From: Bacteroidota bacterium
Lineage (GTDB): Bacteria > Bacteroidota > Ignavibacteria > UBA10030 > UBA6906
Direction of reading: 5' to 3'
Length of the DNA: 64,000 bases
NCBI GenBank assembly: GCA_030835135.1
Contig: JAUQWO010000076.1
Location: 203,102-267,101 of the forward strand
A program made the translations under genes and the position numbers. Under the pieces are notes generated by a model, which ran no database searches, had not been told where the DNA came from, and worked only from the letters and a program-made list of their open reading frames with translations. The stretch's first letter is position 1, and each line of letters opens with the position of its first letter. Positions 6,671 to 45,978 of the stretch are shown piece by piece.

Positions 6671-6751
6671 GGTCCCGCGGGAGTTCTCCGGGGTACGGCC
6701 GCACCGTTCACTGACACTCGAGGTGTGTCCGGAGAGGGAGCAGATGGGAGC

Positions 6752-12186: not shown

Positions 12187-12219
12187 GAATGAAGAACCAG
12201 GAATTCTTGATTCTTGATT
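12181..12219 (+). repeat. AT-rich imperfect inverted repeat (hairpin) in the only AT-rich gap of the operon
   Basis: Arms 12181-12196 and 12204-12219 pair over 16 positions with one G/G mismatch and one wobble, around a 7-base loop (CCAGGAA). The right arm is itself a tandem TTCTTGA heptamer. The left arm begins in the last codons of the heparinase-like gene and includes its TAA stop. It has no U-tract after it, so it is a weak terminator at best. Its base composition differs sharply from the GC-rich surroundings. It may be a REP-like or MITE-derived element, or an mRNA-stability hairpin. Confidence 0.6.
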
Positions 12220-12249
12220 GTATTCACAATTGGAAAGGTACAACTCCGA

Positions 12250-13077
12250 ATGATGACCGGCAAAGAGGTCCGGCTGCAGAAGATCTGGAAACACCGTCGC
12301 GCGGTGATCGTGCCGTTCGATCACGGTGGGTTCAGTGGCCCACAACCTGGCATCGAGGACCTTCTCCGTCTCACCGAACGGGTGTCACGGACGCAGGCTG
12401 ATGGCATCCTGGTCGCGGGGGGCATGATCCCCCACATCGCTCCGGCCGTGGGAACGCTCGGGATCATGGCACGGCTCGATGGCGGATTCACGAAGTTTGC
12501 ACGGGAGGTCACGGACTACCGGCAAATGATGTCGGTGCAGGATGCTGTCGCCCTGGGCGCCGATGCGGGCATCGTCTTTACCCTCGTGGGAACACCCGTT
12601 GAATCTGCCTCGCTCCACCGGCTTGGTATGACGGCAGGCGACGCCCTGCGCGCCGGATTACCGCTCGCCGCCGAGGTCATCCCCCCCTCTCTGCTCAACA
12701 ATCACTTCGGCATGCAGATCTTCCCGAAGCCGCCGAAGAACGCCAGCGTAGACGACGAGATCGCGCAAACCGTCCGGATCGGCGCAGAGGCGGGTGCGGA
12801 TATCATCAAGACCCGGTATAGCGGCGATGCGGACAGGTTCCGCCGGGCCGTGAAATCCGCGCATGCGCGCGTGATCGTGGCAGGCGGACCCCTGAGCTCG
12901 GGCTCCGATGAAGCGGTCCTGGAACTCGCCGCAGATTGTGTGAACGCGGGGGCGGATGGCATCGTCTTTGGCAGGAATGTGTGGCAACATCCGCGGATGG
13001 AGAAGATGCTCGCTGCGCTCTGTGCGATCGTGCACGAGGAAGAGACCGTCGCCCGCGCCCGGAAGCTTCTCCGATGA
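12250..13077 (+). CDS. Class I (DeoC/FbaB/LsrF-type) Schiff-base aldolase
   Basis: A 275-residue TIM-barrel aldolase of the DhnA/FbaB family. K187 in DIIKTRYSGD is the expected Schiff-base lysine, and PFDHGGFSG near the N-terminus matches the family's conserved D-H. Relatives cleave fructose 1,6-bisphosphate, or act as 2-amino-3,7-dideoxy-hept-6-ulosonate synthase or in autoinducer-2 degradation. An upstream TTG at 12214 would extend the frame, but the ATG at 12250 (or 12253) is the natural start, with GGAAAGG at 12232-12238. The following gene is a 1-phosphofructokinase-type kinase joined by an ATGA overlap. The pair resembles the LacC/LacD arrangement, where a kinase makes a ketohexose bisphosphate and the aldolase splits it to triose phosphates. 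Confidence 0.85.
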   Translation: MMTGKEVRLQKIWKHRRAVIVPFDHGGFSGPQPGIEDLLRLTERVSRTQADGILVAGGMIPHIAPAVGTLGIMARLDGGFTKFAREVTDYRQMMSVQDAVALGADAGIVFTLVGTPVESASLHRLGMTAGDALRAGLPLAAEVIPPSLLNNHFGMQIFPKPPKNASVDDEIAQTVRIGAEAGADIIKTRYSGDADRFRRAVKSAHARVIVAGGPLSSGSDEAVLELAADCVNAGADGIVFGRNVWQHPRMEKMLAALCAIVHEEETVARARKLLR

Positions 13078-14003
13078 TCACCACCGTCACCCTGAATCCG
13101 ATGCTGGATAAGACCGTGTCCGTTCCCGGCATCCGTCACGGTGCGATCGTGCGTGCCTCGGGGATCGACATGGTGGTCGGTGGCAAGGGAGTGAATGTCT
13201 CACGGCAGCTCGCGCGTCTCGGAGCGTCCACGGTGGCGACGGGATTTCTGGGTGGCGAGATCGGTACGCTCCTCGAACGGTTGCTGGATGAAGAGGGGCT
13301 GCATCATCGATTCGTGCGGGTTGATGGCATGACGCGTGAAGGCGTGACCTACCTGGACGAGACGGGCCAGATGACCAGCGTGTTCGAACCGCCCCACGCC
13401 GTCACCCCCGGGGACGTGGAGCGGCTGGTGACCGTCTGCGCGGACCTCGCGCAGAACAGCGCGTGGGTCGTCTGTTGCGGCAGCTCTCCGTCGGATGCGG
13501 CGGATCTGGTCTATCGTGACCTGATCAGCAATGCCCGGGCCTCCGGGAAACGGACGGCGCTGGACTCCTATGGGGCCCCCTTGCGCGCGGGGATCGACGC
13601 CGTGCCGGACCTTCTGAAGATCAACAGACATGAGTATGAGCAGACCTCGGGGAACAGTGCCGGGACCGAGCGCGAGGTCCTTGCCGCCCTCGATGCTCTT
13701 CGCAATGCGGGGATCCGCTTGGTGGTTCTGACCGACGGCGAGCGCGCCGTGTATGCTGCCGATACAGCATCTGTCTGGCGCGTGGCACCCCCGGTGATCA
13801 CCAGTGTCAACCCTACCGGTTCGGGCGACAGCATGCTTGCCGGCATGCTCTTCGGCATCGAGCAGGGATGGGACATGCCGGTCTGGCTCTCCTTTGGCGT
13901 CGCTGCCGGCGCGGCGAACGCCGCTGTGCGCGAGGTCTCTGCGTGTCCCCGCGCGGCCATCGATGGCTTGCTGGACAGGATCCAGCCACAACGTATTCTC
14001 TGA
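13074..14003 (+). CDS. 1-phosphofructokinase/tagatose-6-phosphate kinase-type hexose-phosphate kinase (PfkB family)
   Basis: A 309-residue member of the PfkB subfamily that contains FruK, LacC and PfkB, ATP-dependent kinases of ketohexose phosphates. The opening TVTLNPMLDKTVSV is the subfamily signature, followed by VVGGKGVNVSRQLARLG (about 28-44), and the C-terminal NPTGSGDSMLAGML block puts the catalytic base at D252. The frame stays open upstream, but this start gives the family N-terminus and overlaps the aldolase stop by four bases. The product would be a ketohexose bisphosphate, the natural substrate for the aldolase encoded just before. Which hexose phosphate is used cannot be read from sequence. 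Confidence 0.9.
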   Translation: MITTVTLNPMLDKTVSVPGIRHGAIVRASGIDMVVGGKGVNVSRQLARLGASTVATGFLGGEIGTLLERLLDEEGLHHRFVRVDGMTREGVTYLDETGQMTSVFEPPHAVTPGDVERLVTVCADLAQNSAWVVCCGSSPSDAADLVYRDLISNARASGKRTALDSYGAPLRAGIDAVPDLLKINRHEYEQTSGNSAGTEREVLAALDALRNAGIRLVVLTDGERAVYAADTASVWRVAPPVITSVNPTGSGDSMLAGMLFGIEQGWDMPVWLSFGVAAGAANAAVREVSACPRAAIDGLLDRIQPQRIL

Positions 14004-14037
14004 TCCTCACCACCCGTTCAACAGGAAAGGCATTGTC

Positions 14038-16374
14038 ATGGCAACGCTGCAGCAGTATCTCTCACAGCTGAAGAAAGCCGAGTGCACTCCCGGCGGGCCG
14101 CTCGTAGAAGCGACGGTCGCGCGGGAGTTCATCGCTGGGTGGGCTCCGGATGCCGGCCTGTTCGCGACCCCCGGCACAGCCGCTCCTGCCGGAACCATGC
14201 GCATCGGTGTGACTGGCAGCGGCGTTGCGGCGCGCACGATCCATCCCGCGCTTGACGGCAAGAGCCATTGGATGATGTTGCGCTGTGCCGACGGACAGGG
14301 CGCGGAGCTGCTCGCCTCGCATCCCCACCTGCTGTACCAGCTCTGGACACTCGTTGCCGGCGAATGGAAAGACCTCGATGCAGCTTCATTCCGGCAGGGC
14401 CGGATCGTCGTCCCGACGTTCCCCGGCATGCGTCCGGTGTATGATATCTTCCTGACCCAGATCGCACGCACCGTCCGGTGGTTCGACCGGGATGAACACT
14501 TCCGCACGATCGCCCGGATGGGGTCGTCATACGCCGAGGTCAACGGACTCGCCTTCCCCGTGCCCTTCGAAACCGGACCGAAAGGAGAACTGCTGCATCG
14601 GTTCTACACGTACTGTCCCGCGTTGGACCAGTTCGTCACGAGCCGGTTGAACAAGGGCTTCTACGATCAGGATTATCTCCAGGCCAACCTCAACAATCTG
14701 AAGACCAATGCCGGGTATGCGGAGAAGTATGGCCTGACCCCGGGGATCGTCTGCTTCGAGCCGCGCTCGGTACCCGATGAACTCCTGCAGCGCTACCCGG
14801 TGCTCCGCGGTGCGCGCGTCGATCACCCTATGCGCAGCTTCCGTCCCCGCTTTAACCTGTCCGTTGCCCATCCGGTGGTGCTCGATCACTACGCCGAAAT
14901 GATGGTGAACCTCATGAGTGAGGTCCCGAAGCTCGGCTACATGTCGATCTGGTCGAACGACAGCGGTGCCGGTTTCGAATATACAAGCTCGCTCTATGTC
15001 GGCCGGAATGGCGGCGGCTATCTTGTCCGCGAATGGCTGGCGGCCAAGGATATCGCGGCTGCAGCAGCATTCAACCTCGTCCGGTTCATGAAGACCCTGC
15101 GGGATGCAGGCAGGAAGGTGAATCCCGCCTTCCGCACCCTCATCCGCCTCGAGCCGTTCTGGGAAGAACACGATCATATCTGGAAACTGCTGGAAGATGG
15201 TCTGGATGTCGAGGTATCGTCCCTGCTCACCAAGGGGTGGGACCTTGCCTACAAGCACCCGAAGTATGAGGAGGTGCCCCAGATCCATGGCACGGCACTC
15301 TATAATACATTCGTGGAAAAGGAACGCGAGATCATGACCGATCTCGAGTCCAAGGGTTCCTCCGCGGACATCTATTTCGTCCCCGGCATCCTCGGCAACC
15401 ATGAACCGCTCATCGGCATCCCCTTCCCCGGCCTCATTCACCGCAAGCTGCAGGAAATGGCGGAGCGCAAGGTGGAGACCGCGGCGTATCAGGGAGGCGC
15501 GACACAGCCCTCCTTCGCGCCGTACAACATCAACCAGGAGGTCATGCGTGCGTTCCAGTTCGACAGGTCCATGGATCTGAAGGCGTTCGTGCGGTCGCGC
15601 GCCGTCGCATGGATCGGCGAGGAACTGGCCGACGATCTGGTGCAACTCTGGGCCATGTCTGAAGATGCGTACACCTCCTTCCCGATCCCCATCTGGATCT
15701 ATTCGGGCTGGGGTGTGTGGTACCGATTGGCGATCCGACCCATCGTCCCCAACATCGAGGCGATCCCGGAAGCCGACCGAGCATACTACGAGGACTTCCT
15801 GCTGGCCACGACGCACAACAAGACGCGCGTCGATCTTCGCTGGGACGTCGGGTTCGATCTGCTGGAGCCGGAGCGGGGCTGGAAGGCGGTCCAGCATATG
15901 ACCGACGACCTCTTCCCCGTCATGGAGAAGGCGGTCGCACACGCCGGGGCCATGCTCCGGAAGGCAACGACCGCAACAGCGCGTGCGTGCGCACAGGATC
16001 AATACGACAGGATGCGGGCGTTGCTCTGCTGGTACCGGACGCAGTATGCGACCACGGCGTGGGTGTCGGCGGTCCATACCTACCTCGGGACCACGGATGC
16101 GAAGGAGCGTGCCCGGTGCAAGAGCGTGCTTCGTTCGATGGTGCTCGGGGAGATCCAGAATACGAAGGACCTGCTCCACCTCTGGGAGAACTCCACGACG
16201 AACTGGATGATCATCTCCGACGTTGCCGAGACCACTTTCATCTATTACAGGAATTTCGGCGAGCTGTTGAAGAAGAAGATCGCGCTCATGACCGGCCACG
16301 AGGATGACGATCCGTACGTGGATCCGGACTTCCAGTGGCGCGTGCCGGGATTCACGCCGGAACCGCACGCATGA
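14038..16374 (+). CDS. Large cytoplasmic glycosidase-like protein (predicted TIM barrel), family unassigned
   Basis: A 778-residue protein without signal peptide. I do not recognise a named family. The order of segments resembles GH20/GH67-type glycosidases: an N-terminal alpha/beta part (about 1-160), then a barrel with EYA-like text YAEKYGLTPGIVCFEP, a run where DHPMRSF is followed by a LSVAHPVVLDHY strand, and then YMSIWSNDSGAG at about 300-315, where a catalytic acidic pair would be expected. The last 250 residues are helical. The ATG at 14038 is preceded by ACAGGAAAGG; the frame is open further upstream but overlaps the kinase gene there. Placement between sugar kinases suggests that it releases a sugar from imported oligosaccharides; this is inference. 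Confidence 0.6.
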   Translation: MATLQQYLSQLKKAECTPGGPLVEATVAREFIAGWAPDAGLFATPGTAAPAGTMRIGVTGSGVAARTIHPALDGKSHWMMLRCADGQGAELLASHPHLLYQLWTLVAGEWKDLDAASFRQGRIVVPTFPGMRPVYDIFLTQIARTVRWFDRDEHFRTIARMGSSYAEVNGLAFPVPFETGPKGELLHRFYTYCPALDQFVTSRLNKGFYDQDYLQANLNNLKTNAGYAEKYGLTPGIVCFEPRSVPDELLQRYPVLRGARVDHPMRSFRPRFNLSVAHPVVLDHYAEMMVNLMSEVPKLGYMSIWSNDSGAGFEYTSSLYVGRNGGGYLVREWLAAKDIAAAAAFNLVRFMKTLRDAGRKVNPAFRTLIRLEPFWEEHDHIWKLLEDGLDVEVSSLLTKGWDLAYKHPKYEEVPQIHGTALYNTFVEKEREIMTDLESKGSSADIYFVPGILGNHEPLIGIPFPGLIHRKLQEMAERKVETAAYQGGATQPSFAPYNINQEVMRAFQFDRSMDLKAFVRSRAVAWIGEELADDLVQLWAMSEDAYTSFPIPIWIYSGWGVWYRLAIRPIVPNIEAIPEADRAYYEDFLLATTHNKTRVDLRWDVGFDLLEPERGWKAVQHMTDDLFPVMEKAVAHAGAMLRKATTATARACAQDQYDRMRALLCWYRTQYATTAWVSAVHTYLGTTDAKERARCKSVLRSMVLGEIQNTKDLLHLWENSTTNWMIISDVAETTFIYYRNFGELLKKKIALMTGHEDDDPYVDPDFQWRVPGFTPEPHA

Positions 16375-17537
16375 ACGATGGCCGGCCGTTGCGCGTGATC
16401 GTCGCCCCGGATTCCTTCAAGGGGTCGCTTGATGCCGCCGCGGTCGCCGATGCGGTCCGGTCCGGGATTCTCGATGTCCTCCCCGATGCGGAGGTGACGG
16501 TGGCGCCGGTCGCTGATGGAGGAGAGGGGCTGCTGGAAGTCCTGGCCCCCGTGCTCGGAGCAGCTCTCCAAACGACGAGGGTCGCCGGGCCGCTTCCCGG
16601 ACAGTTCGTGGATGCTGCGTGGGGCTATGTGGACCGCGACCGCCTTGCGATCATCGAGATGGCGTGTGCCGCCGGTCTGCTGCTCGTGCCACCGGAACAG
16701 CGTGATCCGCGCATCACGACGAGCTACGGCTTCGGCGAGGTCATCCGCGCGGCGTTACATGCCGGCGCGAAGCGCATCCTTGTCGGCATCGGAGGGACGG
16801 CAACCAACGATGGCGGTGCGGGGATGGCGCAGGCGCTCGGCGTACGGCTCCTTGCGGATGATGGCACTCCCATCGGGCGGGGTGGTGTTGCGCTGGGCCT
16901 GCTTGCATCGATCGACCTCTCGGAACGGGAACCGCTTCTGGCCGGGGCAAGGGTCGTGGTCGCGTCAGATGTCAGCAGCCCGTTGACGGGTCCGAACGGC
17001 GCGTCGCATGTCTATGGTCCACAGAAGGGGGCAACGCCGGCGATGGTTGCAGAACTCGACCGCGCCCTCGAGAACTATCGTCAGGTGATCGTGCAGTCGA
17101 CGGGGGTCGATGTGCAGCAGGTGCCGGGGAGCGGCGCGGCAGGTGGGGCCGGAGCGGCACTCGCCGTGTTCTGCAATGCGGAGATGCGCCTGGGGATCGA
17201 CGTGGTGCTGGATGCGATCGGGTTTGACGAACATCTCTCCCACACAGACCTTGTGATCACCGGCGAAGGCCGGCTGGATGACCAGACGAGTGCCGGAAAG
17301 GCCATGGCCGGGGTGCGGGCACGCGCGCATGCACGGGGTGTGCCCGTCGCGGCCATCGTCGGGTCGGTGCAGGGTGATCCGGAACGGTTCAAGGGCCCCG
17401 ACGGGTTCTGCGATGTCCGTCCGCTCGTGGATGGCACGATCACCGTCGACGCAGCGATCCGTGATGCCAGCCGGCTCATCCGTATGCGGACCACGCAACT
17501 GATCCGCGGTCTGGACCCTGGCGGGCGTCGATCGTGA
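16371..17537 (+). CDS. Glycerate kinase (GlxK/GarK family)
   Basis: A 388-residue glycerate kinase of the GlxK/GarK (type 1, PF02595) family, which phosphorylates D-glycerate with ATP. Recognised stretches are VAPDSFKGSL near the N-terminus, VADGGEGLLE (about 48-57), GIGGTATNDGGAGMAQALG (about 140-158), and GAAGGAGAALAVF toward the C-terminus. Length matches the family. D-glycerate arises from tartronate semialdehyde in glucarate/galactarate breakdown, or from glyceraldehyde after non-phosphorylated 2-keto-3-deoxy acid cleavage, so it fits a uronate-catabolic cluster. The start overlaps the stop of the previous gene (ATGA). Confidence 0.93.
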   Translation: MNDGRPLRVIVAPDSFKGSLDAAAVADAVRSGILDVLPDAEVTVAPVADGGEGLLEVLAPVLGAALQTTRVAGPLPGQFVDAAWGYVDRDRLAIIEMACAAGLLLVPPEQRDPRITTSYGFGEVIRAALHAGAKRILVGIGGTATNDGGAGMAQALGVRLLADDGTPIGRGGVALGLLASIDLSEREPLLAGARVVVASDVSSPLTGPNGASHVYGPQKGATPAMVAELDRALENYRQVIVQSTGVDVQQVPGSGAAGGAGAALAVFCNAEMRLGIDVVLDAIGFDEHLSHTDLVITGEGRLDDQTSAGKAMAGVRARAHARGVPVAAIVGSVQGDPERFKGPDGFCDVRPLVDGTITVDAAIRDASRLIRMRTTQLIRGLDPGGRRS

Positions 17538-30701: not shown

Positions 30702-30722
30702 CCATCCACTCAGCAGGTGCAT

Positions 30723-32504
30723 ATGAACCTTGTCGTCAAGCAGGTCAACGTTCTCGACATCCTTGTGGTCGTCATGTATCTGTTGATGCTCACCGGCGTC
30801 GGCATCTATCTCACGCGCTTCAACAAGACCGTCGATGATTTCTTCAAGGGGGGAGGGAAAATCCCGTGGTGGATCTCCGCTCTGTCCACGTTCGTCGCGG
30901 GGTTCTCGGCGTTCATGTTCGTGGGCGCCGCGGGGTATACGTACCTTCACGGGGCGGGCGCGATCGTCCTGTTCACTTCCGCCGCATGGGGCTACGCCCT
31001 CGGCTACATCGTATACGCGGTGCGCTGGCGCAGGGCACGACTCTCGTCGCCCATGGAATTTCTGACCCGGCGCTTCTCGCAGTCCACGACCTACTACTAT
31101 ACCTTCCTGTCCATCATCCCCGCGATCATGGGCCTCGGTCTCATGATCTATACGCTCTGCAAATTCATCGCCGCGGCGCTCGGGATCGTGGCCTTCACCG
31201 TCTCCCTTGGTCCCATCACCCTCACCGGTCTGGAAATGTCCATGATCGTCACGGGACTGGTGATGCTCATATATACCAGTGCGGGTGGCCTGTGGGCGGT
31301 GGTGATCACGGACTCGTTGCAGTTCTTCATCATCCTGATCGTGTCGTTCCTTGTCTGTCCGCTCGCGTTCGTGGCGTTGGGCGGCAGTTGGGACCTGACG
31401 GTGGGATTCCAGCGCCTCATTGCCGAGGCTCCGGCGGGGTATCTTGGTTTTTCGGAGGTGTGGACGAAGCCGTGGTTCTACATCGCGTATCTCCTGAGCA
31501 CGTTCATCGGGTACAATGCCGCATGGCATATCGGGCAACGGTATTACAGCGTGCCCACCGAGCACGACTCCCGGAAGATGGCGTTGCTCTGTGCCGGACT
31601 CAGCCTCGTACTGCCGTTCCTCTGGATCGCGCCGACCATGGCAGCGCGGGTGCTGTTCCCGGACCTCGCGTCAATGTGGCCCGGCGATCCGCATCCGGAA
31701 GAGTCCGCGTTCGTTACCCTTGCCCTCACGCTCCTCCCGAACGGTTTGATCGGCCTGACACTGTCGGCGATCCTGGCGGCGGCAATGACCTCGATCGATA
31801 CGCAGTTGAATTACCTCGCGTCCATCCTCATCCGGGATGTCTATGTGCGATTCCGGACCACGCCGGCGGGTGTTGCACCGGACGAAAAGGAACAGCTCAC
31901 GGCCAGCCGTATCACCGCGATCATCCTGGGGGTGCTCGCAACGGCCACCGCGCTCTTCTTTCAGCGATGGAAGAGTGTCTTCGATGTGGCGCTCAACTAC
32001 TATTCGTGGTTCGGGCCTTCCATGCTGACGCCGGTGATGCTCGGCTTCCTGATCCGCCGCACCCCCTCGTGGTCGGCGATCGTAGCATCGACCGCCGGGC
32101 TCGTCATCGTGCTGATCGTGAACGTCCTCTTCTCCTTTGACGGATATCAGTACGAAGCGAACATCATTGCCGGTGTGGGGGTCTCGTCCCTGGTGTTCCT
32201 GCTTACGGCCCTTTGGCCGGAACGTTCGGCAGCCACCCTGGAGCGGATCAGGGTGTTCTTCGTCGATCAGGACACGCCGGCAAGCGACGAGAGCCTCCGG
32301 TGGTCAGGGAACGCCCTGTCCTCGTATCAGATCGTTGGTGTCCTCACCGCGAGCATTGGGACCGTGGTCGTTCTGCTGGGTATCGTCCCGGCTTCGGTCC
32401 CGGTCCATGTTCTCACGATCGGGCTCGGTGCCGCTACCGCGTTCATGGGCTGGTTGATGACATGGTACTTCCGGCGGCAGTCCAGGATCATCAACGAAGG
32501 GTGA
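30723..32504 (+). CDS. Sodium:solute symporter (SSS family)
   Basis: A 593-residue inner-membrane transporter of the SSS (LeuT-fold, SglT/PutP) family, with about 13-14 hydrophobic segments. Family text includes FFKGGGKIPWWISALSTFVAGFSAFMF near residues 40-66 (the sodium-site helix start) and ALGYIVYAVRWRRARLSSPMEFLTRRFS. The ATG at 30723 is chosen over the GTG at 30717; CAGGTG precedes. Substrates of the family in glycan clusters are sugars, sialic acid or uronates. It is the last gene of the long + strand run and gives a second uptake route besides the ABC importer, perhaps for the monomeric or unsaturated uronate product. The region after it holds a separate promoter. Confidence 0.93.
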   Translation: MNLVVKQVNVLDILVVVMYLLMLTGVGIYLTRFNKTVDDFFKGGGKIPWWISALSTFVAGFSAFMFVGAAGYTYLHGAGAIVLFTSAAWGYALGYIVYAVRWRRARLSSPMEFLTRRFSQSTTYYYTFLSIIPAIMGLGLMIYTLCKFIAAALGIVAFTVSLGPITLTGLEMSMIVTGLVMLIYTSAGGLWAVVITDSLQFFIILIVSFLVCPLAFVALGGSWDLTVGFQRLIAEAPAGYLGFSEVWTKPWFYIAYLLSTFIGYNAAWHIGQRYYSVPTEHDSRKMALLCAGLSLVLPFLWIAPTMAARVLFPDLASMWPGDPHPEESAFVTLALTLLPNGLIGLTLSAILAAAMTSIDTQLNYLASILIRDVYVRFRTTPAGVAPDEKEQLTASRITAIILGVLATATALFFQRWKSVFDVALNYYSWFGPSMLTPVMLGFLIRRTPSWSAIVASTAGLVIVLIVNVLFSFDGYQYEANIIAGVGVSSLVFLLTALWPERSAATLERIRVFFVDQDTPASDESLRWSGNALSSYQIVGVLTASIGTVVVLLGIVPASVPVHVLTIGLGAATAFMGWLMTWYFRRQSRIINEG

Positions 32505-32647: not shown

Positions 32648-33442
32648 ATGGCAGCATCGTTACCCGTCGCGATCATTACAGGCGGAAGCCGTGGCCTCGG
32701 CAGGGGGATCGCACGACGGCTCGCCGAGCAAGGTGTCTCGCTCGTGATCAACTACGCCGGCAACGCGCAGGCGGCAGCGGAAACTGTCGAGATGTGCAAG
32801 GCCCGCCAGTCAGAGCTGGACCAACGATTCGTGACATTCCAGGGGGATATGGCGATCCAGGAGGACCGTCAGCGGCTCGTGGACCAGACGCTGGAGGCGC
32901 TGGGGAGGATCGATGTTCTCGTGAACAATGCAGGCATCGGCCCGCGCGTCCGTGCCGATGTCACCGAGACCACGCTCGAATCGTTCCAGCACGTGCTGCA
33001 GGTGAACCTCGAGGGACCGTACTTCCTGACCCAGGCGGTGGCGAAGTACTGGCTCGAGCAACGTCCCGATCCGATCCTCCCCCATGGGTTCGTCGTGGTC
33101 AACGTGTCATCGATCTCCGCCAACACCGCCTCCCTCAACAGGGGCGAGTATTGCGTGTCCAAGGCCGGACTCTCCATGGTGACGCAACTCTGGGCCTCGC
33201 GCCTGGCGCAGTCGCGTGTGCATGTGTTCGAACTCCGGCCGGGCATCATGGCGACCGACATGACCGCCGGCGTGAAGGAAAAGTATGACCGGCTGATGGG
33301 CGAGGGGCTTGTCCCGCAGTTTCGCTGGGGACAGCCGGATGATGTCGGGAAGGCGGTGGGCTCGCTCGTCAAGGGCGACTTCCCGTATTCGACCGGGGAA
33401 GTCATCTACCTCGACGGTGGCATGCACATGAGAAAGCTGTAG
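32648..33442 (+). CDS. Short-chain dehydrogenase/reductase (SDR), sugar-acid dehydrogenase candidate
   Basis: A 264-residue classical SDR. The nucleotide-binding TGGSRGLG is at 11-18, NNAG at 93-96, and the catalytic set S154/S155, Y168 and K172 (EYCVSKAG) is complete; the C-terminal GEVIYLDGGMHM is typical. It reduces or oxidises a hydroxyl/carbonyl group using NAD(P). The next gene is an unsaturated glucuronyl hydrolase, so a KduD-like role (5-keto-4-deoxyuronate pathway) is attractive. Alternatives are 3-oxoacyl-ACP reductase (FabG) or the dehydrogenase step of a diketo-acid pathway feeding the FAH protein. A strong ribosome-binding site (AAAAGGAG) precedes the ATG. Confidence 0.9.
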   Translation: MAASLPVAIITGGSRGLGRGIARRLAEQGVSLVINYAGNAQAAAETVEMCKARQSELDQRFVTFQGDMAIQEDRQRLVDQTLEALGRIDVLVNNAGIGPRVRADVTETTLESFQHVLQVNLEGPYFLTQAVAKYWLEQRPDPILPHGFVVVNVSSISANTASLNRGEYCVSKAGLSMVTQLWASRLAQSRVHVFELRPGIMATDMTAGVKEKYDRLMGEGLVPQFRWGQPDDVGKAVGSLVKGDFPYSTGEVIYLDGGMHMRKL

Positions 33443-33485: not shown

Positions 33486-34856
33486 ATGAAGATCGATACC
33501 ACACTCTCCCCGCGGGCACTCGCACCCCAGACCACACGGTTGTTCGAGCTGGCGGGGCAGAAGATCACCCTCCTTCAGAAGACCTGGAATCCGCACCACG
33601 GGACCCCTGTGTTCACGGTGAACGGCGTGTATACATCGCGCGGATGGACCGAATGGACGCAGGGGTTTCAGTTCGGTGCCGCGGTCCTGCAGTTCGATGC
33701 GACCGGGGACGCCGGTGCGCTTGCGATCGGGAGGCAGGCGACCGTGGACCATATGGCGACGCATGTCAGTCATGTCGGCGTGCACGACCACGGGTTCAAC
33801 AATATCAGCACCTATGGGAATCTGCGCCGCCTGATGCTCGAAGGGAGGATCCCCGAGAACACATGGGAACGCTCGTTCTATGAACTGGCCCTGAAGGTGA
33901 GTGGCGCGGTCCAGGCGGCACGGTGGACCGACCTCGGGAACGGCGAAGGATACATCTACTCATTCAACGGGCCGCATTCGTTGTTCGCCGATACCATCCG
34001 CTCGTTGCGCGTGCTCGCGCTCGCGCACCAGCTCGGGCATGTGCTCATGGGAGAGAAGGACCGGAAGATCTCGCTCCTGGAGCGTCTGGTCACGCACGCG
34101 TTCACGACCGCGCGGTACAACGTGTATTTCGGTGAAGGGCGTGATGCGTACGATGTCCGCGGACGCGTGGCCCATGAATCCATCTTCAATCTGAACGACG
34201 GCTCGTACCGCTGCCCGAGTTCACAGCAGGGCTATTCGCCGTTCTCCACCTGGACGCGCGGGCAGGCATGGATCCTCTGCGGGTTCGCCGAGGAGTTGGA
34301 ATACCTGGCGGCACTGGACGAGGGGGCGATGCCGAAGGGACGGAAGAAGGCTGAGGTTCTGTCGACATTCCTGGCCACGGCGGAAGCGGTCGCGGACCAT
34401 TACATCGGGCAGTCGCCTCTCGATGGCATCCCCTACTGGGACACCGGTGCACCGGGGCTGGCGCATATGGGCGACATCCTGGGCCGTCCGGCGGATCCGT
34501 TCAATGCGCATGAGCCCGTGGACAGCTCCGCGGCGGTGATCGCTGCCCAGGGGCTCCTCCGCCTGGGCCTCTATCTGCAACAGCATGGAAAGAAGGAGCA
34601 GGGGACGGCCTACCTGCAGGCCGGACTCACCGTGGCGAAGCATGTGTTCGCCGAACCGTACCTTTCCCTCGATCCGAAACATCAGGGACTCATTCTCCAC
34701 TCGGTCTATCACCGTCCGAACGGCTGGGACAACATCCCCGCGGGCCGGTCGGTGCCGTGCAACGAGGCCACCATGTGGGGAGACTATCACGCGATGGAGC
34801 TCGCTCTTCTGATCGCCCGGATGGCGGAGGGGAAACCCGCGCTGAAGTTCTGGTAG
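33486..34856 (+). CDS. GH88 unsaturated glucuronyl hydrolase
   Basis: A 456-residue cytoplasmic enzyme of glycoside hydrolase family 88. It removes the 4,5-unsaturated uronic acid left at the non-reducing end by polysaccharide lyases, through hydration of the double bond. The two family aspartates are D101 in GVHDHGF and D169 in LFADTIRS (D88 and D149 in the Bacillus enzyme). The stretch SQQGYSPFSTWTRGQAW (about 241-257) is the conserved substrate-binding part. No signal peptide is present, so it acts on imported disaccharides. It confirms that at least one lyase product is handled by this locus. It is 43 bases after the SDR gene and ends just before a hairpin terminator. Confidence 0.95.
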   Translation: MKIDTTLSPRALAPQTTRLFELAGQKITLLQKTWNPHHGTPVFTVNGVYTSRGWTEWTQGFQFGAAVLQFDATGDAGALAIGRQATVDHMATHVSHVGVHDHGFNNISTYGNLRRLMLEGRIPENTWERSFYELALKVSGAVQAARWTDLGNGEGYIYSFNGPHSLFADTIRSLRVLALAHQLGHVLMGEKDRKISLLERLVTHAFTTARYNVYFGEGRDAYDVRGRVAHESIFNLNDGSYRCPSSQQGYSPFSTWTRGQAWILCGFAEELEYLAALDEGAMPKGRKKAEVLSTFLATAEAVADHYIGQSPLDGIPYWDTGAPGLAHMGDILGRPADPFNAHEPVDSSAAVIAAQGLLRLGLYLQQHGKKEQGTAYLQAGLTVAKHVFAEPYLSLDPKHQGLILHSVYHRPNGWDNIPAGRSVPCNEATMWGDYHAMELALLIARMAEGKPALKFW

Positions 34857-34915: not shown

Positions 34916-35905
34916 TCAGCGGCCGACGGTCGTGAAGAATTCCGCGAGGTTGGCCGGGGGTGCGGCCGCCGGGATATCGCATCCGGAAGAGATGACGAAG
35001 TTCTTGTACGACGCTGTCGCAGCAAGCAATGCAGACGTTCTCGCCGCAACATCACCCACTGTCGATCCCACGAAGATCTCCGATGGATCCAGGTTTCCGC
35101 ACAGAATGGTATCGCCAGGTACCTGCGCAAGTGCCGCAGGGAGGTCCATGGGCTTTCCGAAATGCAGGATCTTCGCGCCGGAGGCCAGCGAAGCCTGGAG
35201 ATGGCCGATCCGTGCGCCGCAATTGTGCAGGATGATCGTGAAGGTGCCGTCCTCGACCGCCTCACGGATCTGCTTCACATACGGGGAGGAGAATTCCGAC
35301 GTCGATGCGGGCGACATCAATCCCGCCGTCGGTTCTGCGATGATGAGCCCGTGTGCCCCGGCCGCCTTGAACGCGCGGGCATAGGCCGTTAGGTATGAGG
35401 TCGTCTTCTTCACCAAGGCATGCATCATTGCCGGTTCGCCTGCGGTCTCTGCCAGCGCTTCGCTCACCCCGAACAGGCGTCCGGCCAGCGAGAACGGACC
35501 GATCATCCCACCCAACACAACGGCGTCCGTGCCGGCCGCACGCAGCTTCTCGATGGTCTTCAGATATACCGTTGTCCGCTTCGCGCCAACCGGGGGGACG
35601 CGGAGCTGATCGATGCCCGGCATGTCGATCACGAACCTGCCGGTTACGGTGGGTACCTCCCAATCATCCATCATGATCGATGCCCCGAACTCCTCTGCTT
35701 CAACGCTGAGGTCCATGGCGGACATGATGAACGGGGTTGCGTACTTCGTATGCAGGGCCAATTCGGCCGCGGCCTGGGCATCGGGGTTGGTGACCATCCC
35801 GCGGACCGTGGTGCCCGCGAGTGATGCCCCGGGAAACGAAAGTACCGGCATGGCGAGCCGGCGTGGGGAGGTGAGGATGCGTTGTGCGACGATGGACATG
35901 GTCAT
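34916..35905 (-). CDS. URO-D-superfamily corrinoid methyltransferase with complete zinc site (MtaA/MtbA-like)
   Basis: A 329-residue TIM-barrel protein of the MtaA/MtbA/CmuA group. These enzymes move a methyl group between a corrinoid protein and a thiol held on zinc. The zinc signature is complete: H227-x-C229 in LHNCGAR and C309 in VISSGCDIP. The ending CDIPAAAPPANL is typical of the family. It is the last gene of the operon, 30 bases behind the corrinoid-activator gene and followed by the terminator. In archaea the thiol is coenzyme M; what it would be in this bacterium is unclear, since a homocysteine methyltransferase is encoded in the same operon. It may alternatively serve as the demethylating enzyme. 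Confidence 0.88.
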   Translation of the reverse strand: MTMSIVAQRILTSPRRLAMPVLSFPGASLAGTTVRGMVTNPDAQAAAELALHTKYATPFIMSAMDLSVEAEEFGASIMMDDWEVPTVTGRFVIDMPGIDQLRVPPVGAKRTTVYLKTIEKLRAAGTDAVVLGGMIGPFSLAGRLFGVSEALAETAGEPAMMHALVKKTTSYLTAYARAFKAAGAHGLIIAEPTAGLMSPASTSEFSSPYVKQIREAVEDGTFTIILHNCGARIGHLQASLASGAKILHFGKPMDLPAALAQVPGDTILCGNLDPSEIFVGSTVGDVAARTSALLAATASYKNFVISSGCDIPAAAPPANLAEFFTTVGR

Positions 35906-35935
35906 TGCCTTCAGTGCGATGTCGTGGACAGGGTG

Positions 35936-37456
35936 TTACGGTGTCTCCGGCTCTCCGCCGGGGAAGATCATCTCGTCAACATAGATATCCTGGAATCCCT
36001 CGAGTTCGCTGAGGGAGACATGAGCGATCCGTTTCGCCAGCGCGTCGAATGTGCCTGCGGGGGCGAACAGCGCCATCTTTGCTCCCAGCAGCGCCGTATT
36101 CCCGGAGGGCTGGATCTGTTCCGCCGCGAAGGGGAGCAGGCCGATGCGGCGCGCGCTGCCTGTATCGACGTAGTTGCCGAAGGCGCCGGCCAGGAGCACT
36201 TCGTGGACCGCGGGAGGCTCGACACCGAACTCGCGGGTCAGAAGGCGGATACCAGCCGCGATCGCGCCCTTGGCAAGTTGGAGTTCACGGATGTCGGTCT
36301 GTGAGATCTTCACGGGCGCAGCGAGCGTGAGTGACGACCCGCCGTCTTCGAAGCGGCCGCCAGCACGGATGAGACCGAGGCGGAGCGCATTGGCGACCGC
36401 ATCCACGAGTCCGCTTCCGCAAATGCCGCGGGGTGGGACGTTGCCCAGCACATGGCAGACCAGCGTATTCTGCTCGATCCGGACGGCGGAGACCGCGCCG
36501 GTGGCGGCACGCATGCCCATGTAGATCCGTGCCCCTTCGAAGGCGGGGCCTGCGGCCGTGGACGCACAGATCATCCGATCACGATTGCCAACGACGATCT
36601 CGCCGTTCGTTCCGAGGTCCACGAGCACCCGGGTCTCGGCACGCTCATGCATCCCGGTGGCGAACACCCCGGCGAGGACATCGCTCCCCACGAATCCGCC
36701 GATCCCGGCAAGGAAACGCACGGGAGGATCTCCCGGGACCTCCCAGCCGAGCCCCGACGCCGTGAATTCCACGGTGGCGAGGGAAACGGGCTCGAAGGGA
36801 TAGTAGGAGAGCGGTGTCACATCGACGCCGCAGAAGAGATTGTGCATCACGGTGTTGCCCACCAGGACGACATCCGTGACCGTCCGCGTGGGGTCACCCG
36901 CGGCCTGCAACAGTTCGGCGATCATGGTGGCGATCTGTTCGCGGATGACGTCAGCGAGCCGTTCGCGCCCGCCGGGTTCCACGGCAGCGGAGACGCGGCT
37001 CATGATATCGGCGCCGAACCGTGCCTGGGGGTTGAGTGCGCTCCGGACGGCAAGGACCTCGCCGCGCGACATATCGAGGAGCTGGGCGACGATCGTGGTG
37101 GTGCCGACATCGATGGCAACGCCGAACCCTGTGCGGGGCGTGAAGGAGAAGCGCGACGTGTCCGCGAGGATCTGGGCTTCCCACTGTGCCAGCTCGAGCG
37201 TGAGGTTGTCCGCGGTGCACTGACATGACAGCCGCCAGCCGGCATCCCGCTCCGCCTGGCTGAGCATGTGCTCCTGGGCGGGGGAGAGGGGGAGTGAGCC
37301 TTCGAGGACGCGGACGCGGCACCCTTTACATTTGCCATGCCCGCCACAGGGGAACTCCACGCCGTACGAGAACAGCAGGTCCTGGAGCGGGGTGCCTTTC
37401 GCGGACTCGATGTCCACCCCCATGGGGCGGAGGCGGATATGGACCGGTTCGCTCAC
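35936..37456 (-). CDS. Corrinoid activation protein (RACo-like: 2Fe-2S ferredoxin plus ASKHA domains)
   Basis: A 506-residue protein that, by family, re-reduces the inactive Co(II) corrinoid to Co(I) with ATP. The N-terminal ferredoxin has C37-x5-C43-x2-C46 and C78 for a plant-type 2Fe-2S cluster (FPCGGHGKCKGC). A linker leads to the ASKHA ATPase domain, beginning FGVAIDVGTTTIVAQLLD (about 110-127), with further phosphate-binding segments DLGTNGEI and LLAGAFGNY. This is the arrangement of RACo of acetogens and of activators in O-demethylase systems. Its presence is the strongest sign that the whole cluster runs a low-potential corrinoid cycle. It overlaps the DUF1638 gene by four bases. Confidence 0.93.
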   Translation of the reverse strand: MSEPVHIRLRPMGVDIESAKGTPLQDLLFSYGVEFPCGGHGKCKGCRVRVLEGSLPLSPAQEHMLSQAERDAGWRLSCQCTADNLTLELAQWEAQILADTSRFSFTPRTGFGVAIDVGTTTIVAQLLDMSRGEVLAVRSALNPQARFGADIMSRVSAAVEPGGRERLADVIREQIATMIAELLQAAGDPTRTVTDVVLVGNTVMHNLFCGVDVTPLSYYPFEPVSLATVEFTASGLGWEVPGDPPVRFLAGIGGFVGSDVLAGVFATGMHERAETRVLVDLGTNGEIVVGNRDRMICASTAAGPAFEGARIYMGMRAATGAVSAVRIEQNTLVCHVLGNVPPRGICGSGLVDAVANALRLGLIRAGGRFEDGGSSLTLAAPVKISQTDIRELQLAKGAIAAGIRLLTREFGVEPPAVHEVLLAGAFGNYVDTGSARRIGLLPFAAEQIQPSGNTALLGAKMALFAPAGTFDALAKRIAHVSLSELEGFQDIYVDEMIFPGGEPETP

Positions 37457-38202
37457 CTGCTCTCGGGCTCTGCGGCGATGATACGTTCATCGTAGGTGCT
37501 GATCACGCGGTGTCCGGGTGGGACGACGAGGAAGTCCTCGCTGTTCCAGTTCCCGGAGATCAGACGTTCAAGAAGGGACATCGAACCTTCCACTTTGTCG
37601 AACGCCCATCCGCGTTCTTCCGCCCGGCCACGGGCGATGGCTTCGAACTGGCCCGGAGGTTCCACACCCATGGTGATGAACGAGATCTGCTTGTAATGCC
37701 TGGTGGTGTCGCACAACTCGTCGTACAGGAACCGCGCGTTCTCTTCACCGTATTTGGCGGCGAGATCGTCGAACGACATGTCCATGCCGTTCTTGTTCTG
37801 GATCGAGAGTTGTTTCAGTTCGCCACTGGCTTCGCCGCGTTCGATCCACCCCGAGGTCAGGAAGTACGTTCCGGGGTTGTCGTTGAAGTACTGCATGTAC
37901 CGGCCACGGCTGCCGAAGAACATCGTCATGCAGTCGTGGCCACGGGGAATGACGAGGGGCAGGGTCCGGGCGCGGAGGCCGGCCACGCCGTTGTTGCAGA
38001 GCGCATAGCCCATGACGATCGCATCGTACCCCGGGAGGTCGGCGGCATCCACGGCGGCCTGCAGCCGTTCGACCATGCCGGCGGACCCTATGTCATGGAG
38101 CCCTTTCCCGAGGAACCGGGAATCGATCTGGTGCGGCGAACGGGCGATGAGGTGAGACAGCTCCCGGTAGAGGACTTCGCAGGAGACGAGGTTCAATTTC
38201 AT
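37453..38202 (-). CDS. DUF1638-family protein
   Basis: A 249-residue cytoplasmic protein of DUF1638, a family of unknown function often found next to corrinoid methyltransferase genes. The start is placed at MKLNLVSCEVLYREL; the frame continues 42 residues upstream, but that part runs into the neighbouring gene and does not look like the family. Visible conserved points are C9 in VSCEVLYREL, GYALCNNGVAGL and the stretch PRGHDCMTMFFGSR. The cysteines and histidine could bind a metal or corrinoid, which is inference. It lies between the homocysteine methyltransferase and the corrinoid-activator gene, and overlaps the latter, so it is translated as part of the methyl-transfer operon. Confidence 0.88.
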   Translation of the reverse strand: MKLNLVSCEVLYRELSHLIARSPHQIDSRFLGKGLHDIGSAGMVERLQAAVDAADLPGYDAIVMGYALCNNGVAGLRARTLPLVIPRGHDCMTMFFGSRGRYMQYFNDNPGTYFLTSGWIERGEASGELKQLSIQNKNGMDMSFDDLAAKYGEENARFLYDELCDTTRHYKQISFITMGVEPPGQFEAIARGRAEERGWAFDKVEGSMSLLERLISGNWNSEDFLVVPPGHRVISTYDERIIAAEPESR

Positions 38203-38230
38203 GCAGGACCGCCGTGGTGCAATGGTCGGA

Positions 38231-39100
38231 TCACCGGAGCGTGCGGGTGAGGGCGGCGACGAAGTCGGGTGATGTTCCGCAGCACCCGCCAACGAAGGCG
38301 ACTCCCGCCTCGCGGAGCTGCTGCGCAAGGGCAGCGAACTCTTCCGGCGTTGTACGATAGGTGATCGTGCCGTTGGTCATCTCGGGCAGGCCGGCGTTGG
38401 CCTTGATCCAGACGGGCAACGAGGTTGCTGCCCGCATGCGGCGGGCGATGGGGATATACCCTTCGATGCCGAGGCCGCAGTTGGCGCCGATGACGTCGGC
38501 GCCGGCGGCGGTCAGTTCCGTGGCCACCGTCTCGGGGGTGGTCCCCATCATGGTCCGGTCCTTGTCCTTGCCGGAGTCGAAGACCATCGAAGCCACGACC
38601 GGGAGGCCGGTGGCGTGCGCCGCCGATACCGCGATCCTGGCCTCTTCGATGTCCGCCATGGTCTCCACGACGATGGCATCGGCCCCGGCCGCGGCGAGTG
38701 CCGCGGCCTGTTCCGTGAATGCTGTGGCAAGGTCCTCTTCTGTCACGTCGCCGGACATGAGCATCTTGCCGGTGGGACCGACCGATGCGAAGACCATGGC
38801 GCGCGTGCCTGCGGCCTCTTTCGAGATCCGGACGCCCGCGGTATTGATCTCCTTGACCTTGTCCGCCAGATTGTGACCTGCCAGCATGATACGGTTCGCG
38901 CCGAACGTGTTCGTCAGGATCACCTGGCTGCCGGCATCGACGTAACGCTGGGCCACCTTCCGGACCTCATCGGGATGCGTGAGGTTCCAGTGGTCCGGAC
39001 AGTCCCCCGGCGTGAGGCCGAGGGACTGGAGTTGGGTCCCCCACGCGCCATCGGTGATGATGGGCGTGGCGGTCAGAAGCCGTGCGAGCGTCGGATGCAT
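38231..39100 (-). CDS. Homocysteine S-methyltransferase family protein (MetH N-domain/BHMT-like)
   Basis: A 289-residue TIM-barrel methyltransferase. The zinc-binding cysteines of the family are present: C208 in GANCGLG and the pair C273-C274 in GGCCGTSP. The N-terminal DGAWGTQLQSLGL and TNTFGANRI stretches match the Hcy domain of methionine synthase. It equals only the first module of MetH; the corrinoid domain is supplied by the separate gene next to it (39131-39766). Homocysteine would be the methyl acceptor and methionine the product. Family members can also use other thiols, so the acceptor is inferred. It lies 30 bases after the corrinoid gene on the same strand. Confidence 0.92.
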   Translation of the reverse strand: MHPTLARLLTATPIITDGAWGTQLQSLGLTPGDCPDHWNLTHPDEVRKVAQRYVDAGSQVILTNTFGANRIMLAGHNLADKVKEINTAGVRISKEAAGTRAMVFASVGPTGKMLMSGDVTEEDLATAFTEQAAALAAAGADAIVVETMADIEEARIAVSAAHATGLPVVASMVFDSGKDKDRTMMGTTPETVATELTAAGADVIGANCGLGIEGYIPIARRMRAATSLPVWIKANAGLPEMTNGTITYRTTPEEFAALAQQLREAGVAFVGGCCGTSPDFVAALTRTLR

Positions 39101-39130
39101 GACGATGGTCCTGTGCTGAAGAGTGAGGGA

Positions 39131-39766
39131 TCAGGCCGCAACGAGCTTGCGTGCCAGTGCGACCGCGCCGTTGGCGTTGGTGCTGTACCCATCGGCACCG
39201 ATCTCTTCGGCATACTTCTCGGTCACGGGTGCCCCGCCGATCATGACCTTGATGTTCCCGCGGATGCCGGCCGCCTTGAATGCTTCGATAGTGGTCTTCA
39301 TCGAGTTCATGGTCGTGGTCAGCAGGGCGGACATGGCGACGAGGTTCGCCTTCTTCTCGTTCAGCGCGGCGATGAACTTCTCGGGCGGCACATCCACGCC
39401 GAGATCGATCACTTCGAAGCCTGCGCCTTCCAGCATCGCGGCCACGAGGTTCTTGCCGATATCGTGCAGGTCACCTTTCACCGTCCCGATCACCACGCGT
39501 CCGGCAGGTTCGGCACCCCTGGCAGCGAGGAGCGGGCGGATCAGCTCGAGCGATGCCTTCATCGCGCGCGCGGAGATCAGGAGCTCGGGAACGAAATACT
39601 CGTTCGCTTCGTAGCGGCGGCCGACCTCATCCATGGCCGGGATCATGTACTTCTGGACCAGCGCCTGGGGATCCGATCCGGCGGCGAGGGCCTGCTGGGT
39701 GACTTCCTTTGACACTTTTGCATTGCCCGTGAGGATGGCATCGTACAGCTTCTGCAGATCTTCCAT
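39131..39766 (-). CDS. Methyltransferase corrinoid protein (MtaC/MtbC/MttC type)
   Basis: A 211-residue protein made of a helical cap (about 1-85) and a B12-binding Rossmann domain (90-211). The corrinoid signature is D99-x-H101-x-x-G104 in GTVKGDLHDIGKN, with H101 the lower cobalt ligand, followed by SALLTTT (S146) and IGGAP (176-180). This is the methyl carrier between donor-specific and acceptor-specific methyltransferases. The frame is open for another 95 residues upstream, but that would overlap the URO-D gene; the ATG at 39766 has AGGAG upstream. It sits second in the operon, between the URO-D methyltransferase and the homocysteine methyltransferase, the order expected of a three-part system. 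Confidence 0.95.
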   Translation of the reverse strand: MEDLQKLYDAILTGNAKVSKEVTQQALAAGSDPQALVQKYMIPAMDEVGRRYEANEYFVPELLISARAMKASLELIRPLLAARGAEPAGRVVIGTVKGDLHDIGKNLVAAMLEGAGFEVIDLGVDVPPEKFIAALNEKKANLVAMSALLTTTMNSMKTTIEAFKAAGIRGNIKVMIGGAPVTEKYAEEIGADGYSTNANGAVALARKLVAA

Positions 39767-39792
39767 GATGCTGGTTCTCCTGAAATGGTGGG

Positions 39793-40842
39793 TTACATTC
39801 GTCCGAATTCGTGTATGGTCTCGTACATCGTTGTGATATTCACCGTCGGGGTGACCGGTTGAAGGTTGTGGCAGGGAGCGCAGATCCACCGCGCACCGCT
39901 GAAGATGCGGATGTTGTCGAGGATCTCCTGACGCACTTCGGCTGCCGTGCCGAAGGGGAGCGTGAACTGGTTGTCCACGGCCCCGTGGAAGATCACGCGC
40001 CGGCCGTACGCCTCCACCAGCCGTTCCCGTTCCATGCCGGGGCACCGCCACTGGATCGGGTTGAGGAGTTCGATCCCGGTGACGTCCAACAGGTCCGGGA
40101 TGATATCGAACGCCGCACCGTCGGTGTGATAGAAGATGTGCACGCCGTAACTCCGCGCGAGATCGGCCATCTTCTTCTGCCGCGGGAGGATGAACTTGCG
40201 GATCTCAGGGATGCCGAACAGCAACGCCGTCTGTCCACCCAGGTCTTCCGCAACGTAGGTCACGTCGATCCTGCCTTTGCCGATCTCAAAGATGCGTTCG
40301 TTCACCGCGTGGTGGTACGTGAAGATGTACTCGAGGGCGGTGTCGACGAATTCCTGCTCCACGAGCAGATCCATCATCGCGTTCTCCATCCCGCGGAGCG
40401 CGCAGTACATCAGGAACGGTTCGAACTCACCGGACCGGACCCAGCGATGGCGCGGTGCGGCCGCAAGTTCCTTCCGGAACCGCTCGTAGTCCAGATCATC
40501 CGGGCTCGGCCAGGGGTAGGCATGCAACTCCTCCACCGTGGTCATGTCCGCGAGCGGATGGTTCGCGAACTCATCATACGATCCGGCGCCGTACTGGATC
40601 GCCGTGCGCCGGAGTCCCCAGATGTCGGCCTGCGGATCACCCGGGAAATGCTTCACCGTGCGTTCCGGATTGACGTGGATGACGCCGTCGATGTTGAGTC
40701 TGGTATACAGTGCTTCCTTGTCGGCACACCCGAGTTCCTTGCAGAGGCGGCTCGTGACCTCGTCGGTGGCCCAGTAGTCAGTGGGAATGCGGTCCGGTTT
40801 CTCACCGGCAAAGATGGCTGTCCAGCGTTCGCGGGGGGTCAT
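39793..40842 (-). CDS. URO-D-superfamily methyltransferase, probable donor-side enzyme
   Basis: A 349-residue TIM-barrel protein of the URO-D superfamily and the first gene of the corrinoid operon. The usual HxC of the zinc-thiol type is replaced by H239-x-D241 (FYHTDGAAF), while cysteines C321 and C324 lie near the C-terminus (WICAPCHN). It therefore probably does not activate a thiol. Some corrinoid O-demethylase methyltransferases belong to this superfamily, so a role in taking a methyl group from an unknown O- or N-methyl donor is likely; that is inference. Its leader carries a tandem repeat and an inverted repeat, suggesting regulation of the whole operon here. Confidence 0.85.
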   Translation of the reverse strand: MTPRERWTAIFAGEKPDRIPTDYWATDEVTSRLCKELGCADKEALYTRLNIDGVIHVNPERTVKHFPGDPQADIWGLRRTAIQYGAGSYDEFANHPLADMTTVEELHAYPWPSPDDLDYERFRKELAAAPRHRWVRSGEFEPFLMYCALRGMENAMMDLLVEQEFVDTALEYIFTYHHAVNERIFEIGKGRIDVTYVAEDLGGQTALLFGIPEIRKFILPRQKKMADLARSYGVHIFYHTDGAAFDIIPDLLDVTGIELLNPIQWRCPGMERERLVEAYGRRVIFHGAVDNQFTLPFGTAAEVRQEILDNIRIFSGARWICAPCHNLQPVTPTVNITTMYETIHEFGRM

Positions 40843-41801: not shown

Positions 41802-41982
41802 CCGGTGCACCTGCGATCAATGGGTGAGGGTGATGATGCAAGGTACTGATCCCGGAGGTGTGCCGCAAGGACCAGGCCCGAAGGGCCAGGGGGTGAAACA
41901 TTGCGCCGGGCCGGGCGTATCTATCAGTGGTCCACATCCGGGCCGTTTACTGTCCTGCCTGTTCTTGCTTCAGGAGAACGCC
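41802..41982. promoter_or_regulatory. Divergent intergenic region between PhyH and LytTR genes
   Basis: This 181-bp gap must hold the promoters of both divergent genes, but no good -35/-10 pair was found. It contains a small GGCCC-GAA-GGGCC hairpin at 41875-41887 and a single GTTTAC at 41945-41950 that resembles the cores of the repeat at 40887-40928. AGGAG at 41972-41976 is the ribosome-binding site of the LytTR gene. Confidence 0.4.
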
Positions 41983-42753: not shown

Positions 42754-42769
42754 CCCGCAGAAACACCGT

Positions 42770-42797
42770 TTCATCGCTTCCTTACGCGCTTCATCGC
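42770..42797. repeat. Direct repeat TTCATCGC with 20-bp period, candidate LytTR site
   Basis: TTCATCGC occurs at 42770-42777 and again at 42790-42797, exactly 20 bp apart, in the 160-bp gap between the first LytTR gene and the sensor kinase. Flanks agree partly (a pyrimidine-rich CTTCC/GCGCC follows). LytTR proteins bind paired direct repeats about two turns apart, so autoregulation of the sensor/regulator pair is possible. No core promoter was recognised. Confidence 0.4.
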
Positions 42798-42913
42798 GCC
42801 CGCCAGGCATTCCGTCCGGAAATCGGCTACGTTTCTTCCAGTGTGCGACACCGTGCCGCTCCACTACGCCGGTGCCGTACCCCGGTGGACAGGCGTCCAT
42901 CGGTCCTTATCAC

Positions 42914-45976: not shown

Positions 45977-45978
45977 GC

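Follow-up and report, generated by a model that had tools for sequence, protein, structure and literature searches.

The DNA analysed here, called the window, is a stretch of 64,000 nucleotides (contig JAUQWO010000076.1, positions 203,102 to 267,101) from a Bacteroidota bacterium of the class Ignavibacteria. At 34916-40842 its minus strand carries a corrinoid methyl-transfer operon of six open reading frames (ORFs), which are intact, co-directional, tightly packed and free of internal stops. From first to last gene they are the following, each with its Pfam match:

39793..40842, minus strand: UroD_A, putative O-methyl donor:corrinoid methyltransferase (MT1) of the URO-D superfamily; Pfam URO-D 3.4e-13; H239-x-D241...C324
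39131..39766, minus strand: Corr, corrinoid protein of the MtgC/MtbC type; Pfam B12-binding_2 1e-22 and B12-binding 2e-32
38231..39100, minus strand: HcyMT, homocysteine S-methyltransferase, the methyl acceptor enzyme; Pfam S-methyl_trans 5.6e-69
37453..38202, minus strand: DUF1638, B12-reactivation accessory protein; Pfam DUF1638 1.4e-33; role taken from PMC5764234 and PMC12478193
35936..37456, minus strand: RACo/RamA-like ATP-dependent reductive activase, [2Fe-2S] and ASKHA; Pfam Fer2, RACo middle and RACo C-terminal 5e-68
34916..35905, minus strand: UroD_B, MtaA/HemE-like URO-D protein; Pfam URO-D 2.1e-50; His-Cys-Cys zinc site (predicted thiol-type)

The stop-to-start gaps are 23, 30, 19, -4 and 30 bp with the ORF starts first used; Corr probably starts with the ATG at 39766 and DUF1638 with that at 38202, which widens the intergenic gaps by a few bp. 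The cofactor motifs are present throughout: D-L-H-D-I-G at residue 100 of Corr, the zinc cysteines of HcyMT (GANC and GGCCG), the [2Fe-2S] cysteines C-x5-C-x2-C of the activase and, in UroD_B, the conserved H227, C229 and C309. A URO-D donor enzyme, a corrinoid protein and a reductive activase are united here in one cluster. The initial annotation of this DNA had described a complete operon, had named its six components and had given the second URO-D protein an intact zinc site, and the frames, the Pfam matches and the motifs bear out all three claims. It had also reported that MtaB, MtbB and MttB are absent, which is true of the operon (the search for MtbB and MttB did not extend to the whole genome) but not of the genome: a gene for MtaB lies on another contig (G000:C31:202094-203449), with none in the window and none encoded together with the corrinoid protein of the operon.

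The operon faces genes for sugar metabolism on the opposite strand:

33486..34856, plus strand: GH88-like unsaturated glucuronyl hydrolase, convergent conserved neighbour of the operon; profile match to 1VD5
32648..33442, plus strand: SDR oxidoreductase of the glycan operon
30717..32504, plus strand: SSF sodium:solute symporter of the glycan operon

A profile of five orthologues of the GH88-like gene matches the unsaturated glucuronyl hydrolase 1VD5 with an E of 3e-14, and the gene ends at 34856, 59 bp from UroD_B and convergent with it, which confirms the placement opposite a GH88 gene noted initially. Searching the order, we found UroD_A orthologues in 17 genomes besides the window's own (best segments 62-83% identical); the named records are mostly metagenome-assembled genomes of Ignavibacteriae or Bacteroidetes, and the isolate names of several indicate fen, groundwater, lake or soil as their origin. 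Since the genes in these loci were called by a simple script, details of unannotated neighbours may be inaccurate. In the family of the window genome (f1, the window genome being G000), the operon adjoins GH88 in 9 of 10 informative genomes (G000, G355, G356, G345, G346, G349, G350, G354 and G361), usually accompanied by SDR and SSF, so that the check first proposed for this locus, conservation of the operon beside GH88 genes in other genomes, gave a positive answer. GH88 orthologues are present in all 11 f1 genomes with UroD_A versus one of the 10 without it (Fisher p 3.4e-5, an optimistic value since the genomes are related). A wide sample of the phylum alone would have hidden these orthologues, because across 296 of its genomes DUF1638 matched only in the window's own; no relatives of the operon were found in a plasmid collection.

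The linkage with sugar genes also takes other forms. In a second family (f2) the gene order is rhamnulokinase-like (RhaB), L-rhamnose isomerase (RhaA), UroD_A, alpha-L-rhamnosidase GH78, permease and RACo; the isomerase exceeds its NCBIfam cut-off, and in several of these genomes about 15 bp separate the end of RhaA from UroD_A. G354 has the order GlyK, an unknown gene, SSF, CN-hydrolase, SDR, GH88, a rhamnulokinase-like gene (492 bits for a cut-off of 528) and UroD_A, and an overlap of 99 bp joins this contig to one with Corr, HcyMT, UroD_B and an aldose 1-epimerase, an adjacency in the assembly graph and not a certainty. A single contig of G350 holds FAH, an MR_MLE dehydratase, a cyclase-like gene, M20, MtaB, ROK, a URO-D, a heparinase-like gene, DeoC aldolase, PfkB, a second URO-D, a 777-aa unknown, GlyK, SSF, SDR and GH88, the last of which faces RACo, DUF1638, HcyMT, Corr and UroD_A. 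The window has the same sugar cluster as G350 minus MtaB, homologous to the clusters that carry MtaB in relatives:

5774..17537, plus strand: sugar cluster core, with FAH hydrolase, M20, ROK, third URO-D (8829-9932), heparinase-like (9907), PfkB (12936), unknown (14041-16374) and glycerate kinase (16335-17537)
L201 9279-10652, L241 6471-7853 and L248 5442-6860: MtaB inside polysaccharide-degradation clusters of Ignavibacteria-related genomes

MtaB lies inside such homologous clusters in G350 (L241), in G352 (L248) and in f2 genomes (L201, L204, L205, L208 and L211), where the cluster also includes a URO-D and a corrinoid protein. Methyl transfer thus recurs, in varying guises, at this one sugar cluster.

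The two URO-D proteins of the operon differ in their active sites. The AlphaFold2 model of UroD_A (pLDDT 93) has the MtaA of M. mazei (4ay8/4ay7) as its top Foldseek match, with an identity of only 17%. Its fold alone cannot tell an MtaA-type from a HemE-type enzyme, since VIA-align gave similar scores for the M. mazei MtaA entry (Z 24.0, root-mean-square deviation 3.3 Å, 304 aligned residues) and for HemE structures (Z 24-26). Aligned by profile with 4ay7, UroD_A places H239 and D241 on the His and the Cys of the MtaA His-x-Cys motif and C324 near the C-terminal Cys; these three residues are invariant in 22 homologues with identities down to 42%. At E <= 0.01 the UroD_A profile matched MtaA 4ay7 only: CdmB 9rui, present in the set, was not reached, and MtvB was outside the comparison. 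No other URO-D protein of this genome shows the His-Asp-Cys pattern in our alignment. UroD_B lies on the MtaA-like side of the superfamily. In thiol-type URO-D methyltransferases the site is His-Cys-Cys, and in O-type enzymes carboxylates or non-coordinating residues replace one or both Cys (Kountz and Balskus, PMC10418091). Read against this pattern, UroD_A (His-Asp-Cys) resembles an oxygen-type donor enzyme and UroD_B (His-Cys-Cys) a thiol-type one, which could be an alternative methyl acceptor or an S-methyl donor enzyme. Because O-demethylases do not all use zinc (PMC13222342), we only infer this donor type for UroD_A. Type 1 mlp clusters have at least two Mlp proteins with His-Cys-Cys; here UroD_B carries that site while UroD_A is His-Asp-Cys, and no sulfur or selenium genes were found among the annotated neighbours of the operon. 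Genome-wide there are 21 URO-D family matches, three of them within the window; their active-site motifs vary widely and some adjoin genes resembling sugar genes. The third URO-D protein of the window (8829-9932, plus strand), between ROK and the heparinase-like gene, presents His-x-Cys without the C-terminal Cys, and its orthologue holds the same place in G350 and G352.

On the acceptor side, DUF1638 and a RamA-like protein form the B12-reactivation pair of the split methionine synthases of Phaeobacter (PMC5764234) and Ruegeria (PMC12478193). The pterin-binding subunit is not in the operon, and the whole genome gave only two PF00809 matches, one within MetH and one in a DHPS-type ORF, and no other methyltetrahydrofolate (methyl-THF):corrinoid MT2. 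Elsewhere the genome encodes a complete MetH and an MTHFR-fused HcyMT, and a housekeeping methionine synthase was rejected as the role of the operon because of this complete MetH. The simplest reading is that of a split methionine synthase in which a URO-D donor enzyme has taken the place of the methyl-THF arm, since Corr, HcyMT, DUF1638 and the RamA-like activase are all present, the pterin part is missing and MetH is complete elsewhere. The absence of UroD_B from the G350 operon, which marks it as dispensable, and of HcyMT and DUF1638 from that of G344, suggests that HcyMT and UroD_B are interchangeable as acceptor modules.

What the sequences show are the six parts, their cofactor motifs, their preservation as a unit and the recurrent linkage with sugar genes; from these we infer what donates the methyl group, what accepts it and which way it flows. 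In the reading we favour, with a probability of roughly 0.57, the donor is a glycan-derived O-methyl sugar and the operon is a self-contained system for corrinoid-dependent O-demethylation which serves sugar catabolism. RACo, together with DUF1638, would convert oxidised Co(II) Corr back to Co(I). The His-Asp-Cys metal site of UroD_A would bind the O-methyl sugar and pass its ether methyl to the Co(I) corrinoid of Corr, from which HcyMT would transfer it to homocysteine to give methionine; UroD_B would be a second, thiol-type transferase, possibly handing the methyl to another thiol. The demethylated sugar would enter either a rhamnose isomerase/kinase route or an MR_MLE/FAH-type (dehydratase/hydrolase) route. 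A link to O-methylated sugars had been offered initially as speculation, with methyl-uronates as the example. The sugar link now goes beyond speculation, because the f1 genomes keep the GH88 synteny and the f2 genomes place UroD_A in a rhamnose operon (RhaB-RhaA-UroD_A-GH78), but the neighbours point to O-methyl-6-deoxyhexoses rather than to methyl-uronates: they include rhamnose isomerase, a rhamnulokinase-like kinase, rhamnosidase and aldose epimerase. That the donor is specifically such a compound, for example O-methyl-rhamnose, is tentative.

Several observations weigh against O-methyl sugar demethylation as the function of the operon. Synteny among related genomes is partly inherited, and G344, the sole exception among the 10 informative f1 genomes, has the operon without a GH88 neighbour, HcyMT or DUF1638. 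Apart from G354, no f1 genome has a rhamnose isomerase or kinase directly adjoining UroD_A, and no UroD_A was found at the f1 genomes' own rhaA neighbourhoods (L232 and others). Outside the order, the close relatives of UroD_A in Planctomycetota (54-67% identical) are mostly stand-alone beside housekeeping or Gfo/Idh genes and, counting Planctomycetota with other phyla, the majority of relatives (42-67%) are isolated or have Gfo/Idh genes next to them (called from the start of their sequence, not by family search). A B12-binding_2 protein apart from MetH is nevertheless encoded in 29 of 29 such genomes tested, though one of them shows just a fragment of it where a contig ends. In Planctomycetota (Thermoguttaceae, Pirellulales), Corr, HcyMT and another URO-D lie close together at L264 and L265 (9.5-16 kb) and at L260 (9.3-17 kb); the L264 and L265 clusters also hold DUF1638, and all three are away from their own UroD_A gene. 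Because of the 29 genomes with a B12-binding_2 protein and of the Thermoguttaceae that keep Corr, HcyMT, URO-D and DUF1638 together, these relatives fit a corrinoid function of UroD_A, but they do not fit its being tied to sugar operons alone. Finally, MtaB in the homologous clusters could mean that methanol, and not a sugar ether, is the source of the methyl group.

This last possibility is the rival that survives best, although we consider it unlikely: the donor would be methanol, or a methyl ester from glycans (e.g., methyl-esterified uronic acids), and MtaB and UroD_A would feed one corrinoid protein and carry methanol carbon to methionine. Besides the MtaB genes within the clusters of G350, G352 and the f2 genomes and on another contig of the window genome, it is favoured by the fact that no corrinoid protein for MtaB other than that of the operon was found in G000, G349, G350 and G352. 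However, it is UroD_A, a protein distinct from MtaB, that the operon conserves; G344, G346 and G354 all have UroD_A but yielded no MtaB, and no methylesterase was recognised among the window genes annotated with Pfam. Less probable still is an accessory split methionine synthase beside which the sugar genes lie by accident, with UroD_A or UroD_B using an ordinary donor (methyl-THF, betaine or S-methyl compounds). Corr, HcyMT, the RamA-like activase and DUF1638 reproduce the Phaeobacter/Ruegeria parts list (PMC5764234, PMC12478193), but the pterin-binding subunit is missing from the operon of a genome with a complete MetH, and the linkage with sugar genes is kept across genera and in different arrangements. 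The stand-alone Planctomycetota copies and the 17% identity to MtaA would also accommodate a UroD_A that is no methyltransferase but a different sugar-acting TIM-barrel enzyme, its link to corrinoid genes being confined to these lineages, but its invariant zinc-type motif, its top Foldseek match to MtaA and its place at the head of a corrinoid operon that several genera retain make this very improbable.

Although the families are known, their combination (an oxygen-type URO-D donor enzyme, a homocysteine acceptor, DUF1638 and a sugar context) matches no known system on all defining features. The URO-D-type O-demethylases (MtvB/OdmB/VdmB/MtoB) share the three-component scheme (donor enzyme, corrinoid protein, acceptor enzyme) plus an ATP-dependent activase, the URO-D fold of the donor enzyme and an oxygen-type donor (predicted for the operon), but here the acceptor enzyme is a homocysteine methyltransferase instead of a PF00809 methyl-THF enzyme, the UroD_A profile at E 0.01 does not reach their relative CdmB, and the surroundings are sugar, not aromatic. 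The split methionine synthase/MtgBCDE of Phaeobacter and Ruegeria has the same separate corrinoid protein, homocysteine methyltransferase, RamA-like activase and DUF1638, whereas the operon lacks the pterin subunit (MtgD) and has URO-D enzymes at the donor position, with a complete MetH elsewhere. Type 1 mlp gene clusters (Kountz and Balskus 2023) likewise combine URO-D methyltransferases with a corrinoid protein and a Ram-type activase, and UroD_B has their His-Cys-Cys; UroD_A is His-Asp-Cys, HcyMT and DUF1638 are present, and the context is sugar instead of sulfur/selenium. MtaABC methanol methyltransferase resembles the system through the M. mazei MtaA-type enzyme, the top Foldseek match of UroD_A, and through MtaB in the homologous sugar clusters of relatives, but the window has no MtaB and the acceptor would be homocysteine rather than coenzyme M.

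Other genes of the window deserve mention. Upstream of UroD_A on the same strand lies a PhyH-family dioxygenase (40971-41810, minus strand), which is near UroD_A also in G356 and G361. Just upstream of the operon, at 41635-46749 on the plus strand, two LytTR-like regulators surround a 1034-aa sensor-like protein (recognised by eye, with no family search); since homologues of the latter are located near the operon in G345 and G355, it may regulate the operon. The 777-aa protein (14041-16374, plus strand) is 62% identical in the homologous sugar clusters of two families and is probably an undescribed carbohydrate-active enzyme; with no Pfam or PDB match and a poor model (pLDDT 56), it was dropped, together with the heparinase, as a pointer to the glycan. 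The protein at 28266-30698 had no PDB match.

Polysaccharides of algae, plants and bacteria contain O-methylated sugars, whose methyl ether can prevent ordinary isomerases and kinases from acting on them, and the known demethylation route for methyl sugars is an oxygen-dependent P450. Our searches of open-access literature found no paper on corrinoid demethylation of methyl sugars or polysaccharides. It is conceivable, though short of probable, that Ignavibacteria-related bacteria carry out a B12-dependent, oxygen-independent O-demethylation of methylated 6-deoxyhexoses with homocysteine as acceptor within polysaccharide-degradation clusters, and perhaps, via UroD_A relatives, Planctomycetota, Aminicenantes, Anaerolineae and Bathyarchaeota as well. 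If true, such a corrinoid route would explain how anaerobes use methylated glycans in peat, groundwater and sediment, would connect the degradation of glycans with the metabolism of methionine and one-carbon units, and would supply a role for some members of the large, unassigned URO-D superfamily.

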